64,000 nt of DNA from Lactiplantibacillus mudanjiangensis (lineage in GTDB: Bacteria > Bacillota > Bacilli > Lactobacillales > Lactobacillaceae). A model generated the notes under the pieces. It had not been told where the DNA came from. It was given only the letters and a program-made list of their open reading frames with translations, and did no database searches. The stretch's first letter is position 1, and each line of letters opens with the position of its first letter. Shown piece by piece: positions 402-6,405 of this stretch. Location of the stretch: positions 124,001-188,000 of the forward strand of contig NZ_BJDY01000003.1 of NCBI RefSeq assembly GCF_005405385.1, read 5' to 3'. A program made the translations under genes and the position numbers.

Positions 402-1394
402 ATGCAAATTATTAATGAACCGGACCAAGCCCTCGCCCAAGCAGTGCAAGGTATTCAGTGGACCTATCCTGAGCTAGCTTGGGTTCCCGACACGTACGGT
501 TGTTATGATCGTCATTTTGCTGACAACCAGATCCCACTATTGGCTGGTGGTGGTAGTGGACACGCCCCAGCTCATTGGGGCTATGTCGGCCACGGCATGT
601 TGACTGGCGCCGTCATGGGCACAATTTTCACGCCACCAACCGCTGAACAAATTGTTAAGGTTGCGCAGGCGATGACCCATCAACGACGACTCTTTTTGAT
701 CGTTAAAAACTTTCCCGCCGATGTTAAGGCCTTTAAGACTGCCCAAACAACCCTACAAGACCAAGGTTGGGACGTGGGTATGGCCCTCGTGGCTGACGAT
801 ATTTCCGTCGATAATGCCTCCTTAAAACAGCGACGTCGCGGCGTGGCCGGCACGGTTCTTATCCATAAGCTCTTAGGTGCGGCGGCCGCTAATGGGGCCA
901 CCATGGCCGAATTAACAACCCTCGCGCAACACGTCACCGCCGCCACCAAAACCATTGGGGTCGCGACTAGTGGTGCCCTGATTCCTGGTCAAGCCGACGC
1001 CTCATTCACCTTAAATCCTGGTGAAATTTATTATGGCATTGGAATTCACGGTGAGCCTGGCTATCGACAAGAACCATTCCAATCATCAGAACGACTTGCC
1101 CAAGAACTGATTAGTAAATTACGACTTAACTTTCAATGGCACGCCCACGATCATTACGCCGTCTTAGTCAATTCTTTGGGTGGCATTACCCCGTTGGAAC
1201 TAATGGTCTTTAATCACGATGTGCATGAATTACTACAACTCGACCAGTTAGCGCTCGACTTTCATCAAGCGGGAACCTTCCTAACATCAAATGGAATGCA
1301 TGGGCTTTCTTTAACATTGCTGCACCTCGAACAAACTGACTGGTTAGCTGCCCTGAACATGCCGGTTAAAACACCGGCATGGCCAAATCATTAA
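402..1394 (+). CDS. dhaQ: DhaQ, dihydroxyacetone-sensing DhaK paralogue
   Basis: This 330-residue protein is DhaK-like over its whole length: GGGSGHAPAH near residue 50, a retained Asp in NFPADVKAF, and GIGIHGEPG with the His (about 216) that binds dihydroxyacetone covalently in DhaK. In Lactococcus lactis a DhaK paralogue, DhaQ, carries ligand and turns the TetR-family protein DhaS into an activator. A dhaS-like gene and a matching operator here support the same role. I chose the ATG at 402 because upstream in-frame codons contain a TATAAT -10 (366-371). The ribosome site before 402 is weak. Since the catalytic-type residues are kept, residual kinase activity cannot be excluded. Confidence 0.8.
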   Translation: MQIINEPDQALAQAVQGIQWTYPELAWVPDTYGCYDRHFADNQIPLLAGGGSGHAPAHWGYVGHGMLTGAVMGTIFTPPTAEQIVKVAQAMTHQRRLFLIVKNFPADVKAFKTAQTTLQDQGWDVGMALVADDISVDNASLKQRRRGVAGTVLIHKLLGAAAANGATMAELTTLAQHVTAATKTIGVATSGALIPGQADASFTLNPGEIYYGIGIHGEPGYRQEPFQSSERLAQELISKLRLNFQWHAHDHYAVLVNSLGGITPLELMVFNHDVHELLQLDQLALDFHQAGTFLTSNGMHGLSLTLLHLEQTDWLAALNMPVKTPAWPNH

Positions 1395-1446
1395 GTTAGT
1401 ATCTAAAGGATAAAAATTGTTTTTTAGTGACAGGTACACGCTCAAC

Positions 1447-1662
1447 TTGCCACCTACCGTTCGCCCACGTTGAGCCGGAGCCAGTCAGTGATGGCGCCGG
1501 CCGTGAAGACAGCGTTAGTCCGGATGATTTTTCCGGGATTACGCTGTGGACGACTTTTGAGACTAGCGGTTTTGGCTAGGCTTTAAAGCGAGGTTGAAGC
1601 CCGCACTGTGGCTGAAACCGGTCCCCACAGCCGGTAGAATCACTGGCTGGCGTAGGTGGCAA
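1447..1662 (+). repeat. Structured 186-nt intergenic repeat, copy A (core 1475-1660)
   Basis: This fills most of the gap between dhaQ and dhaS, which converge here. The core is gaplessly alignable with copy B at 5053-5238 (186 nt each, about 19 differences by my count). The ends pair (GCCAGTCAGTGAT 1480-1492 with ATCACTGGCTGGC 1639-1651), and in this copy an extra outer arm pairs too (TTGCCACCTAC 1447-1457 with GTAGGTGGCAA 1652-1662). Inside are a long hairpin (1509-1547) and smaller stems. Wobble pairs are U.G only if the plus strand is the RNA. It could be a structured RNA or a small non-autonomous mobile element. It contains no ORF. Confidence 0.75.
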
Positions 1663-1715
1663 ATTTAGCATGACTGAAGTCAAAACTAGTCAAGTTGCTG
1701 CCGCATCTTTATCTT

Positions 1716-2243
1716 TCAACCTTTAGCTAGCATCTTTAAGGTCATTTGAATGGCCGTTACAGCGGCCGTCGCTAATTCTTCATAATCTCGCGGATGATTG
1801 GTGAGTAAATTATGAATCAAGGACTGCGCAATGCCTAAGCACAGTAACCAAATTAACGTTGCCGCCGAGGCCACCACATCAGTTGGGCTAAGATGGGTCA
1901 CTAATTCAGCTAAATGGTTGGCAATTAAAGCCGTCACGTCAATTTCGTGCTGTGTCTTGACGCTGGCGACATAAAATTGCCGATGCGCCTCTAGTTCATA
2001 GCAAACCAAGTTAATGATGGCCGGCCATTTTAAATAATTCAAATTATGCTCGACCGTTTCACTCAACGTGTCGTCAATAGACCAGGCCAGCAATTCATAT
2101 TTATCTTGAAAATAATCATAAAACGTTTGCCGACGTAACCCCGCCGTATCCATGATGGCCGTCACTGACGTATGGTCAATGCCTTTAGTTGTGACAAGTT
2201 GCTGTAACCCTTGCGCCATTTTGCGTTGTGTAATATACGCCAT
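1716..2243 (-). CDS. dhaS: DhaS, TetR-family activator of dihydroxyacetone kinase genes
   Basis: This 175-residue TetR-type regulator starts at an ATG preceded by GGAGGTGG. A longer in-frame extension lacks a ribosome site. The N-terminal helix-turn-helix includes TSVTAIMDTAGLRRQTFYDYF and KYELLAWSI, which resembles the lactococcal DhaS pattern (MRRQTFYNHF, DKYELL). The C-terminal part would contact DhaQ. It converges on dhaQ across copy A of the repeat. By analogy with L. lactis it should activate dhaK through the inverted repeat at 310-331 when DhaQ is loaded with dihydroxyacetone. The DhaS assignment rests on the HTH pattern plus context. A generic TetR repressor is the alternative. Confidence 0.8.
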   Translation of the reverse strand: MAYITQRKMAQGLQQLVTTKGIDHTSVTAIMDTAGLRRQTFYDYFQDKYELLAWSIDDTLSETVEHNLNYLKWPAIINLVCYELEAHRQFYVASVKTQHEIDVTALIANHLAELVTHLSPTDVVASAATLIWLLCLGIAQSLIHNLLTNHPRDYEELATAAVTAIQMTLKMLAKG

Positions 2244-2283
2244 TCGGCCACCTCCGTTCATCAGTATTGCTCCCAGTTTAATG

Positions 2284-2342
2284 CAAAACGTGTGGCGACA
2301 CCACTCTGAAGTTAAGTTCAGGTGATGCCGCCACACGTTTTT
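2284..2342 (-). terminator. Terminator after lipoprotein gene
   Basis: AAAACGTGTGGCG and CGCCACACGTTTT form a long perfect stem, with inner pairing of CACCTGAA and TTCAGAGTGGTG. It follows the stop of the minus-strand lipoprotein gene and precedes the dhaS ribosome site. A role as a regulatory palindrome for dhaS is also possible. Confidence 0.6.
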
Positions 2343-2353
2343 AGTTGTCATGA

Positions 2354-3139
2354 CTATTTAATCCAAACTTCGTTAACCAGATTGCCATCATAGGTATTGC
2401 CATCGGTTAACACCGAGTTGCCATCATAAGAGGTATACCCGTAATAAGTTTCATGCTCATTATCGCTATCCCAAACGACATCCACTTCAACGTTAGCATG
2501 AATTGTCTTCGTGTCATTGGTCCCCGTTGAAACATCGTAAGACAAAATGCCAGTCGCACTAGACGCCTTGATCGTGGCGGTGCCATAATAAGCTGAGCCA
2601 TCATTGTTGTTTTGGGTCACCGTTCCATCGGAAGCAATCGACAAATCTGACTGTGGCCGATCACTATCGTAGTTATAGAAAGTATAGTCCCCAACAAACT
2701 TACTGTAGCCATCAAACCTGTGATTCGTGGCTGGTGTGGTTGTCTTAGACGATGCCGCAGCCGTACCACTCTTAGTCGTGCTAGCCGTCTTGCTTTGCTT
2801 ATGCTTTTTCAGTAAGAATTTATCATTGCTCTTTTGTAACGCAAAGAATTCCGTTTTTAACGCGCCAAATCCCTTTTTACTCAAATCCGCTAAATCAATC
2901 GAACTCAACTGCTTATTAGACTGCTTATACTTGCCGTCCACATTCAATTGTTGCGCCTTTTTTAAGATTGCCTCATCCTTGGCTAACTTTGGATCAGTGC
3001 TGCTGGCGCTACTACTTGTCGCCATTTTTGTGGTTTTAGAACTCGTACTTGAGCTCGTTTGAGCTGCATTGCCACAACCGCTCAACATCCCCACGGCTAA
3101 TACCCCGACTAATGCAATGACCCACTGTCGTTTTTTCAT
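2354..3139 (-). CDS. Secreted lipoprotein of unknown function
   Basis: This 261-residue protein begins MKKRQWVIALVGVLAVGML and continues into the lipobox LSGC, so it should be lipid-anchored outside the membrane. A Ser/Thr/Ala-rich linker (about residues 28-50) precedes a Lys-rich helical segment (about 50-115), a second Ser/Thr linker, and an aromatic, Asp-rich C-terminal domain (FVGDYTFYNYDSD ... YYGYTSYDGN). The start was chosen at the Met-Lys-Lys, since GGAGGGG lies just before it and the upstream ATG overlaps that site. I do not recognise the C-terminal domain and assign no function. The gene is flanked by terminators and seems monocistronic. Confidence 0.8.
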   Translation of the reverse strand: MKKRQWVIALVGVLAVGMLSGCGNAAQTSSSTSSKTTKMATSSSASSTDPKLAKDEAILKKAQQLNVDGKYKQSNKQLSSIDLADLSKKGFGALKTEFFALQKSNDKFLLKKHKQSKTASTTKSGTAAASSKTTTPATNHRFDGYSKFVGDYTFYNYDSDRPQSDLSIASDGTVTQNNNDGSAYYGTATIKASSATGILSYDVSTGTNDTKTIHANVEVDVVWDSDNEHETYYGYTSYDGNSVLTDGNTYDGNLVNEVWIK

Positions 3140-3316
3140 CAAATACCCCTCCAATTTACTTGAAACTTGCCTTGATAAGTTTAAGCCAATCGACAGGAGA
3201 CTGCAATCGTTGTCATGACAGCTATTTAGCCAGTTATTTGTCCTTTAGTTTGAAATAGTTTCAAGTTCCCCCAAAATAATTGATTTTCAACCAATTAATC
3301 ATGGTTAATTGGGCGC

Positions 3317-3345
3317 AAAAAAGGCCAGAAAAATTTTCTGGCCTT
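3317..3345 (-). terminator. Terminator of the NADH oxidase-like gene
   Basis: On the minus strand, AAGGCCAGAAAA and TTTTCTGGCCTT form a hairpin followed by TTTTTT, a few bases after the stop codon at 3354. Confidence 0.85.
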
Positions 3346-3353
3346 CATTCTAC

Positions 3354-4748
3354 CTACTTTTTACCCCAATTGCCCATCGCGGTAATCCGTGGCTCGTCGT
3401 TACCCAATTGCCGTTCTTGTTCGACGGCTTGTTGGCCGACTAAATTCAAATAGTTAAATGGTTCATCAAAATTTGGTTGGAATAACATGTCCACATATGA
3501 CAAATCATCAATGGTATTGCCATTTTGAATCATGACCGATATCGTGTTCGCTGATTGCGACACATCATGTTCGCTCCAAAACTGTGCCCCTAAGATTTGG
3601 CGCGTTTCATAATCATAAACCAAATCAATAATGATTTCAGTTGGATTGGGCATATATTTAGGTCGATAGGGGCCATCATAGATCGCATGCCGAACTGGCA
3701 AGTGATCACGTTGGGCTGCGCTATACGTCAAACCAGAAGTCGCTAACGTATAGTCGAACAACTTCATCGCCGAAGTGGCTTGGGTGCCAACATACGGCTG
3801 GATATCACCAAAAACATTAATCCCCGCTAACGCCCCTTGCCGCAACGCGTTAGTCGCTAATGGCGTATAGGCCGGCTTACCGGTCGGATTAAAATTAACC
3901 ACACAAGAATCTCCAGCCGCATAAATATCTGGATTTGATGTTTGAACATAATCATTAATAATGATGGCGCCATGACGATCCATGTCCACTTGTCCGCGCA
4001 AAAGTTCTGTATTCGGCACAAAGCCAGTACAGACAATGGCTAGATCAACTTCATATTCTTGATCAGGCCCTTCAATGGATACCCGGTCATCTTCGGTATT
4101 TTCAAAACTCGTCACCCGTTGATTAAGGTGCACATGTACCCCATGATCCCGTAACAATTGAACGGCCCGATCGGATAATTCATTGCCGATATAGTTGTTT
4201 AAGATATGACCGTGCGACTGAAATAAGGACACTTCATGATTCGTTTCAGCGTAACTTTCGGCTAATTCTGTCCCCATATACCCGGCCCCGATCACCGCAA
4301 TATGATGATGATCCTTAGCCGTTTTATAAATTTCTTGAGCTTGCTGATAGTTCTTGCATAACAAGACATTGGCTTGATCGATCCCAATAATTGGCGGCAC
4401 CGCCACAGAAGAGCCGGTCGTCATAATCAACTTATCGTAATCATCTTCAAAAACCCGCCCCGTTTGCATGTCGGCAACTTGCATGGTTTTTTTGGCCGTA
4501 TCAATTCGTAAAACGTTATGTTGGGTTCGAACCGTCGCGCCCATTTCACGCAGATCGTCAGGCGAAGAATAAAACATATCTTCCAAGCGTTTAATTTTCC
4601 CCGTAAGATATAAATAAATCCCACTAGAGACAAACGAAATATTATCATGCCGTTCATAGACCGTCACATCAGTTTCTGGATGACGAATCAAAATTTGTTT
4701 TGCGGCGGCCGTCCCCGCATGCGTACTCCCCACAATGATGACTTTCAT
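3354..4748 (-). CDS. nox: NADH oxidase/peroxidase-family flavoprotein with Ser at position 42
   Basis: This 464-residue FAD/NAD(P)-disulfide reductase-fold protein has an FAD site at MKVIIVGSTHAGTAAA with His10, an NAD site at IAVIGAGYMGTELAESYAE (about 150-170), a second FAD motif at DIYAAGDSC, and a C-terminal dimerisation domain. Counted from this Met, His10 falls on the active-site His of enterococcal Npx/Nox, but residue 42 is Ser (NISFVSSGIYLYL) where those enzymes carry the redox-active Cys42. In that family, Cys42-to-Ser mutants of Nox make hydrogen peroxide instead of water. The start has a weak GGAAG ribosome site. An ATG seven codons upstream is possible. It seems monocistronic. 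Confidence 0.85.
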   Translation of the reverse strand: MKVIIVGSTHAGTAAAKQILIRHPETDVTVYERHDNISFVSSGIYLYLTGKIKRLEDMFYSSPDDLREMGATVRTQHNVLRIDTAKKTMQVADMQTGRVFEDDYDKLIMTTGSSVAVPPIIGIDQANVLLCKNYQQAQEIYKTAKDHHHIAVIGAGYMGTELAESYAETNHEVSLFQSHGHILNNYIGNELSDRAVQLLRDHGVHVHLNQRVTSFENTEDDRVSIEGPDQEYEVDLAIVCTGFVPNTELLRGQVDMDRHGAIIINDYVQTSNPDIYAAGDSCVVNFNPTGKPAYTPLATNALRQGALAGINVFGDIQPYVGTQATSAMKLFDYTLATSGLTYSAAQRDHLPVRHAIYDGPYRPKYMPNPTEIIIDLVYDYETRQILGAQFWSEHDVSQSANTISVMIQNGNTIDDLSYVDMLFQPNFDEPFNYLNLVGQQAVEQERQLGNDEPRITAMGNWGKK

Positions 4749-5052
4749 CTGATAACTTCCATTCATTTTTAATCTCACTGATCTCACTAACCAGTACCGT
4801 TCCCCTAATCTAATAAGTAAGGTTTATTCACTTAAACTTCATAGTTTCGTTTAGTTTAACATCTTTCCTATTCCAAAACTATCTTTAGTACAACTTAATT
4901 TTTTGTTATTTTAATTTAACTACTACTAATGACTAAGGCCGAAAGTTACTTTTTGAGTATCATCGTTGATATATTAGAGATTCACCAATCAAAAGTGGCT
5001 CAATGTGAGCTCTGGTTATAATAGCTTGAATGAATTAATGTCCATAAAATAA

Positions 5053-5238
5053 CCGAAGCCAGCCAGTGATGGCGCCGACCGTGAAAACATCGTAAGTCCG
5101 GATGATTTTTCCGGACTTACGATGTGGACGACTTTTGAGACTAGCGGTTTTGGCTAGGCTCAAAAGCGAGGTGGCAACCCGCACTTTGGCTGGAGCCGGT
5201 CCCCACAGCTGGCAGAATCACTGGCTGGCGTAGGTGGC
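5053..5238 (+). repeat. Structured 186-nt intergenic repeat, copy B
   Basis: This is the second copy of the element at 1475-1660, with the same length and no gaps. Closing stem GCCAGCCAGTGAT (5058-5070) with ATCACTGGCTGGC (5217-5229) is perfect. The internal hairpin (5087-5101 with 5111-5125) is a perfect 15-bp stem. TTTTGAG/CTCAAAA and CTAGC/GCTAG form a further stem around 5134-5166. The outer arm seen in copy A is absent. A TATAAT (5017-5022) lies about 30 bp upstream on the plus strand without a good -35. The rest of the gap between nox and galR (4749-5052) is AT-rich and would hold the nox promoter, but I see no clear hexamers. Confidence 0.75.
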
Positions 5239-5256
5239 TAATTTAATTACTCATCT

Positions 5257-5299
5257 AAAAAAGCGATGAAACTAACCACTAATTGGTCGTCTCATCGCT
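5257..5299 (-). terminator. galR terminator
   Basis: On the minus strand, AGCGATGA and TCATCGCT pair across a loop of about 22 nt and are followed by TTTTTT, just after the galR stop. Confidence 0.8.
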
Positions 5300-5313
5300 A
5301 CTAAGTAAATCAT

Positions 5314-6405
<1,092 letters not shown>

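Follow-up and report, generated by a model that had tools for sequence, protein, structure and literature searches.

A MITE-like repeat of Lactiplantibacillus mudanjiangensis that probably carries a conserved, structured RNA domain in two outward-facing copies

What kind of genetic object is a 186-nt sequence that occurs twice, in diverged form, in a 64,000-nt stretch of the Lactiplantibacillus mudanjiangensis genome (hereafter the window: positions 124,001 to 188,000 of contig NZ_BJDY01000003.1, assembly GCF_005405385.1)? A first-pass annotation had aligned positions 1475-1660 (copy A) and 5053-5238 (copy B) without gaps and proposed a structured RNA or, alternatively, a small mobile element. 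The gap-free alignment was reproduced with exactly 19 differences, and the base-pair changes named in it proved accurate, namely G-C in copy A against T-A in copy B at 1512/1544, A-T against G-C at 1617/1635 and G-C against G-T at 1620/1632. Compared over 1475-1667 and 5053-5245 the copies are 90% identical, and a model of the repeated module (R1) matched both of them and no third place in the window. Elsewhere in the window, two diverged direct repeats (49616-49740/63061-63185 and 50354-50427/63799-63872, 74% identical) share a spacing of 13445 bases, which suggests a paralogous gene pair.

The 186-nt repeat is a real unit, yet it covers roughly half of an element of ~540 bp. In a search of the own assembly, the best 40 of 211 candidates were all long matches with 86-100% identity, and in the 30 of these 40 that were read the conserved sequence extends well beyond 186 nt. 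Full copies span from CTAAAGGTTGAAAG to CTTTCAACCTTTAG and are composed, in this order, of a left end, a module on the minus strand (M1), a linker, a module on the plus strand (M2) and a right end. M1 and M2 are related structured modules that lie on opposite strands and both face outward; read on its own strand, M1 resembles M2 (74% over 78 positions), as also seen in a profile search. Among 53 elements with two recognisable ends, 35 measure 500-556 bp and the others 193-492 bp, the shorter class including many internal deletions. The terminal inverted repeat CTAAAGGTTGAAAG occurs with at most two mismatches at 207 genome sites (103 forward, 104 reverse), against 29 (7 and 22) for the reversed pattern used as control, and the best 150 of 797 first-look candidates in the genome all matched the module model, well beyond chance. 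The copy number is above 100 and, taking at least 150 modules and the mean length of 470 bp of the 53 elements, the family is estimated to occupy ~2% of the genome. As own-genome copies were chosen by similarity to copy A, model score and terminal repeats, decayed copies are under-sampled.

Both window copies are reduced forms of this architecture. Copy A is an internally deleted element of 324 bp (1403-1726, plus strand) in which almost all of M1 and the linker has been lost, with the left end CTAAAGGATAAAAATTG at 1403 and the right end CTTTCAACCTTTAG at 1726. Comparison with full-length copies identified positions 1449-1474 (plus strand) as the left inner arm (GCCACCTACCG...) plus a remnant of M1, fused directly to M2, the structured RNA domain at 1475-1660 (plus strand; R1 match 1480-1649, 146.5 bits, E 2.5e-43). 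Copy B is truncated (4933-5247, plus strand, its end being approximate): M1 is almost wholly deleted, the right end is lost and the left end is degenerate (CTAAGGCCGAAAG), with M2 at 5053-5238 (plus strand; R1 match 5058-5227, 139.4 bits, E 4.4e-41). The E-values of the module models are to be taken as rough.

Evidence that the element has moved comes from its flanks. Exact target duplications border 27 of the 53 two-ended elements (7 bp in 12, 8 bp in 11 and 9 bp in 4), another 12 have a 7-8 bp duplication with one mismatch and 14 have neither, whereas mispaired flanks yielded exact duplications of at least 7 bp in only 4 of 2756 combinations. Copy A is counted among the 14 because its two target copies, TTAGTAT at 1396-1402 and CTAGCAT at 1727-1733, differ at two of seven bases. 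The comparison with empty sites that had been advised was informative in this regard: L. daowaiensis, a different species with ~75% DNA identity over this region, has the same neighbour genes without copy A and a single target TTAGCAT, from which each of the two target copies departs by one base. The region of copy B is also absent there, with an unaligned spacer of 65 nt as compared with 403 nt in the window, the edges of copy B being too degraded to show a target duplication. Regarding insertion context, 20 of 44 distinct own-genome loci lie between convergent genes, 21 between tandem and 2 between divergent ones, with 1 unclassed (orientation taken from reading frames of at least 100 codons, the counts standing without a background rate). 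One copy of 193 bp (L254:2412-2604) is devoid of both modules and still flanked by an exact 8-bp duplication, TAACATAT; this may reflect a later deletion, or may be a sign that transposition needs no modules.

Within the 53 elements, a set found by searching at element lengths of 180-620 bp, the reading frames reach 119 codons at most (median 61). Terminal inverted repeats, target duplication with an empty site and the lack of a transposase gene of its own are features of a miniature inverted-repeat transposable element (MITE). No transposase or autonomous partner was found at 20 further terminal-repeat sites, taken from among 100 of the 207: 16 are element copies or remnants, and at the four that do not align (L247, L250, L260 and L265) none of the reading frames is transposase-like, the terminal repeat lying within a reading frame or at its end in L250, L260 and L265 and standing alone in intergenic DNA in L247. 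Seven loose pairs of terminal repeats (up to three mismatches) were seen 620-4000 bp apart, that of L265 being located in a reading frame. A 3.7-kb pair at L048, considered as an autonomous element, turned out to be two separate elements with host genes between them. The plasmid and phage search returned no match for the module or for a whole element (L049).

The structural half of the original proposal was assessed on 32 modules, drawn from seven genomes within the genus and aligned without reference to structure. The resulting fold has P1-P2 as its outer stem and, in addition, the hairpins P3, P4 and P5. RNAalifold recovered 27 pairs, 24 of them changed on both sides, and in a 43-pair version 86.4% of the cells are paired and 38 pairs are changed on both sides. 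The recommended covariation statistics gave a score of 0.477, which none of 500 shuffles reached (0.170 ± 0.009) and which sliding the structure along the alignment reduced to 0.131 or less. Covariation also exceeded what kinship produces, since none of 300 structure-free simulations on a tree attained the observed value, a result to be read jointly with the slid control because the null of the simulation starts from no paired ancestor. In 124 model-fitted modules 42 of the 43 pairs are changed on both sides, bearing in mind that alignments A2 and A3 lean toward their model. The fold has non-canonical features as well, an A opposite G within P4 being kept in ~97% of the 124 modules and a C.A mismatch in P2 occurring in 13 of the 32. 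A pseudoknot between GACC in the P5 loop and a downstream GGTC was rejected, as its inner pairs hold in 18, 21 and 25 of the 32 modules without compensation. The module fold is therefore strongly supported, and it is conserved by compensatory change across genera. Mobility and structure are thus both supported at once: the non-autonomous element stood up through its terminal repeats, target duplications and empty site, while its role as a rival to the RNA did not, and the first-pass annotation's view that empty sites would speak against an RNA does not follow.

Which strand is constrained is a subtler matter. The plus strand, previously preferred as the RNA strand, is favoured for copies A and B, but in the full element the other strand bears a module as well. 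In the plus-strand consensus fold copies A and B show 8 and 6 G.U pairs, respectively, and no A.C among 60 pairs, which by itself weighs little because that fold was built to suit the plus strand. Folding energy cannot choose the strand either, since both fold unusually well: for positions 1447-1670 the plus strand reaches -106.8 kcal/mol against -76.9 ± 5.1 in shuffles (z -5.9), and the minus strand is equally unusual against its shuffles (z -7.3). A test was made on own-genome copies, each module being read outward and pairs being picked irrespective of strand. G.U exceeded A.C in M2 (137 against 32 cells; 64 copies, 56 pairs) and in M1 (104 against 37; 53 copies, 51 pairs), whereas in unpaired columns the corresponding changes were reversed (157 against 210 for M2 and 29 against 101 for M1). 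A replication bias should not account for the excess in both modules, given that each element has M1 on one strand and M2 on the other. Counted as distinct changes, the difference is not significant (M2, 32 against 20, p 0.13; M1, 27 against 23, p 0.67), and a sign test at the level of pairs reaches significance in M2 (28 against 8, p 0.0012) but not in M1 (19 against 12, p 0.28).

The excess is a property of variants shared between copies (G.U 39, A.C 15) and is absent from singletons (20 and 28; Fisher p 0.0025). Within the genome, shared variants tolerate G.U over A.C on the outward-reading strand, which suggests that selection acts at the level of multiplying lineages, single copies being left to decay neutrally. 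The overall share of G.U is nonetheless low for an RNA, 181 of 4460 standard pairs in alignment A2, so that a DNA-level constraint may contribute.

The module occurs in most genomes of the genus and also in other Lactobacillaceae. Model R1 matches 19 of 21 genomes of the genus, own genome included, the searches having scored the best 150, 139, 73 or 7 matches per genome. A scan of named genomes, covering the genomes of 19 out of 26 loci with at most the best 150 places scored in each, found the module in 14 of the 19: at least 150 matches each in fabifermentans, pingfangensis and daoliensis, at least 148 in dongliensis, at least 147 in songbeiensis and at least 138 in nangangensis, 90 in herbarum, 28 in daowaiensis and 12 in modestisalitolerans. 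The plantarum strain EGD-AQ4 has 66 matches, the best with an E-value of only 1.7e-14. Beyond the genus there are 125 matches in Secundilactobacillus odoratitofui, 99 in S. similis, 4 in Companilactobacillus versmoldensis and 1 in Liquorilactobacillus sucicola, and R1 matched no genome of Pediococcus (two), Loigolactobacillus (two) or Oenococcus (one). In L. daoliensis and also in two species of Secundilactobacillus, galK is preceded at ~200-300 bases by a module of its own orientation (L138:9531-9701, L144:9638-9816 and L143:9607-9774); the window has no module at that place. On a larger scale, model R2 matches 76 of 395 genomes of the order, from 13 of 80 genera. In a sample of the phylum it matches 2 of 398, both belonging to the order: the own genome and one of a genus (g4) in which a dedicated sample gave matches in 29 of 40 genomes, with 1-10 copies each (9 of 40 with R1). 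Its flanking genes and its Rfam matches, discussed below, indicate that this genus is probably Streptococcus.

The Streptococcus copies mostly occupy fixed sites, such as purD-purE. The neighbours of 50 loci were read (the best-scoring matches, with gene names assigned from translations). At 28 of them the module follows purD and precedes purE or purK in the sense direction, and at 15 it lies between infB and rbfA, antisense to the operon; three more are found between rmlC and rmlB, one between grpE and dnaK and one before rsfS, in sense, with the remaining two elsewhere. The purD-purE modules comprise at least three subtypes, at times in tandem. In model-fitted alignments the share of paired cells is 87.8% for 31 of them, 26 of the 43 pairs being changed on both sides, and 92.0% for 14 infB-rbfA modules, in which 2 of 43 pairs are changed. 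One purD-purE interval (L186) has a further inverted repeat upstream of the module, which resembles a BOX-type repeat.

These copies also provide the one link to a described RNA. At a relaxed threshold the Rfam model SSRC8_2 (RF02616) matches all six Streptococcus loci scanned, on the sense strand of the module, with E-values from 2e-11 to 1e-4 and scores of 28.6-49.8 bits, all below the gathering score of 72. Model positions ~138-242 align with the P4-P5 core of the module, and the 281-position model has parts that are absent from it. SSRC8 is an S. pyogenes sRNA that was detected on Northern blots and mapped with circular RACE, whose listed homologs elsewhere align only within ~142-250 (Table 4 of PMC3675131), and it is not treated as a mobile repeat in the accessible part of that paper. 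As SSRC8_2 found no match in positions 1340-5400 of the window, even at E up to 10, nor in four other Lactiplantibacillus loci, the link to SSRC8 runs through the Streptococcus copies. At the gathering threshold Rfam matched nothing in the window or in seven loci, SSRC8_2 included, and gave a single match in 14 loci, a 23S-methyl RNA motif beside and not within an element (RF01065, 73.6 bits, L244:2796-2894, minus strand, genome G025, ~110 bases from the module). The remaining weak matches of the relaxed scans were taken for chance.

Apart from SSRC8, nothing recognised as this RNA or repeat was found in the literature searched. The motifs lacto-1, lacto-2 and coccus-1 of 2007 may be earlier sightings, so that a prior description is conceivable. 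Their names were not found in the literature searched, which did not include the 2007 source paper. Further motifs (Lacto-int, ScRE and sanguinis-hairpin) are listed in Table 1 of PMC2864571, as far as that paper was available. Among repeats, BOX and RUP of Streptococcus pneumoniae are like the element in having more than 100 copies each (BOX 125, RUP 110), terminal repeats, target duplications and predicted folded transcripts, as described in PMC3049150; going by that description, the element differs in its ~540 bp, its pair of outward modules and the conservation of its fold between genera. Similarly, the MITEs ERIC, Correia, QMITE and Chunjie, in the sections of PMC10969869 devoted to them, have terminal repeats and short target duplications (7-9 bp in QMITE2), AT-rich intergenic targets and stable predicted transcript folds. 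The element is longer than those MITEs, which reach ~400 bp in these sections, and is unlike them in bearing two copies of a complex RNA domain that is under covariation.

Taken together, the data are best accounted for, with a probability of about 0.62, by a non-autonomous (MITE-like) transposon that carries a transcribed, conserved structured RNA domain in two diverged, back-to-back outward copies. Its DNA would be moved in trans by a transposase acting on the inverted repeats. A conserved linker promoter was not found (TATAAT in 14 of 60 linkers), and scanning copies A and B for promoters and terminators gave numbers near those of shuffled sequence; as no internal promoter is conserved, read-through transcription is favoured. 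With one module per strand, read-through from either side would produce one sense module, near the exit end of the element. The module RNA would then fold alone and act in cis on the transcript, for instance by shielding or processing a 3' or intercistronic region, which would render insertions in transcribed intergenic DNA tolerable and favour the lineages in which the fold is maintained. Streptococcus has retained twin-less modules at a small number of intercistronic positions, and the SSRC8 Rfam model contains the module core.

The same observations have to be weighed against other explanations. The fold might be needed as DNA, the module being a long transposon end that a recombinase recognises as a folded single strand or cruciform, in the manner known for integron attC sites and IS200/IS605 ends. 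The modules at both ends form, in effect, an imperfect long inverted repeat, G.U is rare overall, the constraint is seen in shared variants only and no promoter is conserved; moreover, a folded single DNA strand also prefers G.T over A.C, meaning that the strand test does not exclude this explanation. We nevertheless consider it rather unlikely, because the combination of inverted repeats and duplications of 7-9 bp suggests a transposase that works on double strands, unpaired bases are conserved, twin-less modules are retained at Streptococcus sites and there is a relative with transcription of the same strand, as reported in the accessible part of PMC3675131. Alternatively, compensatory changes could be mutational and unselected. 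Template switching between hairpin arms, or quasi-palindrome correction, restores complementarity, and both the low G.U share and the strong, long hairpins are compatible with such a process. However, it would hardly spare the A opposite G of P4 or leave C.A in P2 so common, and the strand-specific bias at the level of cells, present in shared variants and missing from singletons, makes a mutational origin highly improbable.

An ordinary host regulatory RNA, either a riboswitch or a trans-acting sRNA, that happens to be repeated would suit the Streptococcus modules found ahead of purE, rmlB, dnaK and rsfS in conserved positions, as well as the sRNA status of SSRC8 in the available text of PMC3675131. 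It is poorly reconciled with target duplications and more than 100 copies, and only 2 of the 44 own-genome loci lie between divergent genes, a count without a background rate. For Lactiplantibacillus this explanation is contradicted by the empty site, a contradiction that is not extended to Streptococcus, and we judge it very unlikely on the whole.

The outward domain could itself be a working part of the element's mobility, e.g., a self-processing RNA or a scaffold that brings a protein, encoded by the host or in trans, to the adjoining transcript or DNA. Enforcement of the structure on shared variants and not on singletons favours this possibility, which we regard as unlikely. If true, the family would be a bacterial counterpart of RNA-dependent SINEs, spread across the Lactobacillales and domesticated in Streptococcus operons. 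Irrespective of this, the module family is abundant, yet the sole clear hint of it in Rfam is the below-threshold SSRC8_2 match of its Streptococcus relatives. A published S. pyogenes sRNA tied to a mobile repeat would alter the reading of its homologs. With hundreds of natural variants of a single RNA fold, a number of them in conserved places within operons, the function of this domain is directly testable.
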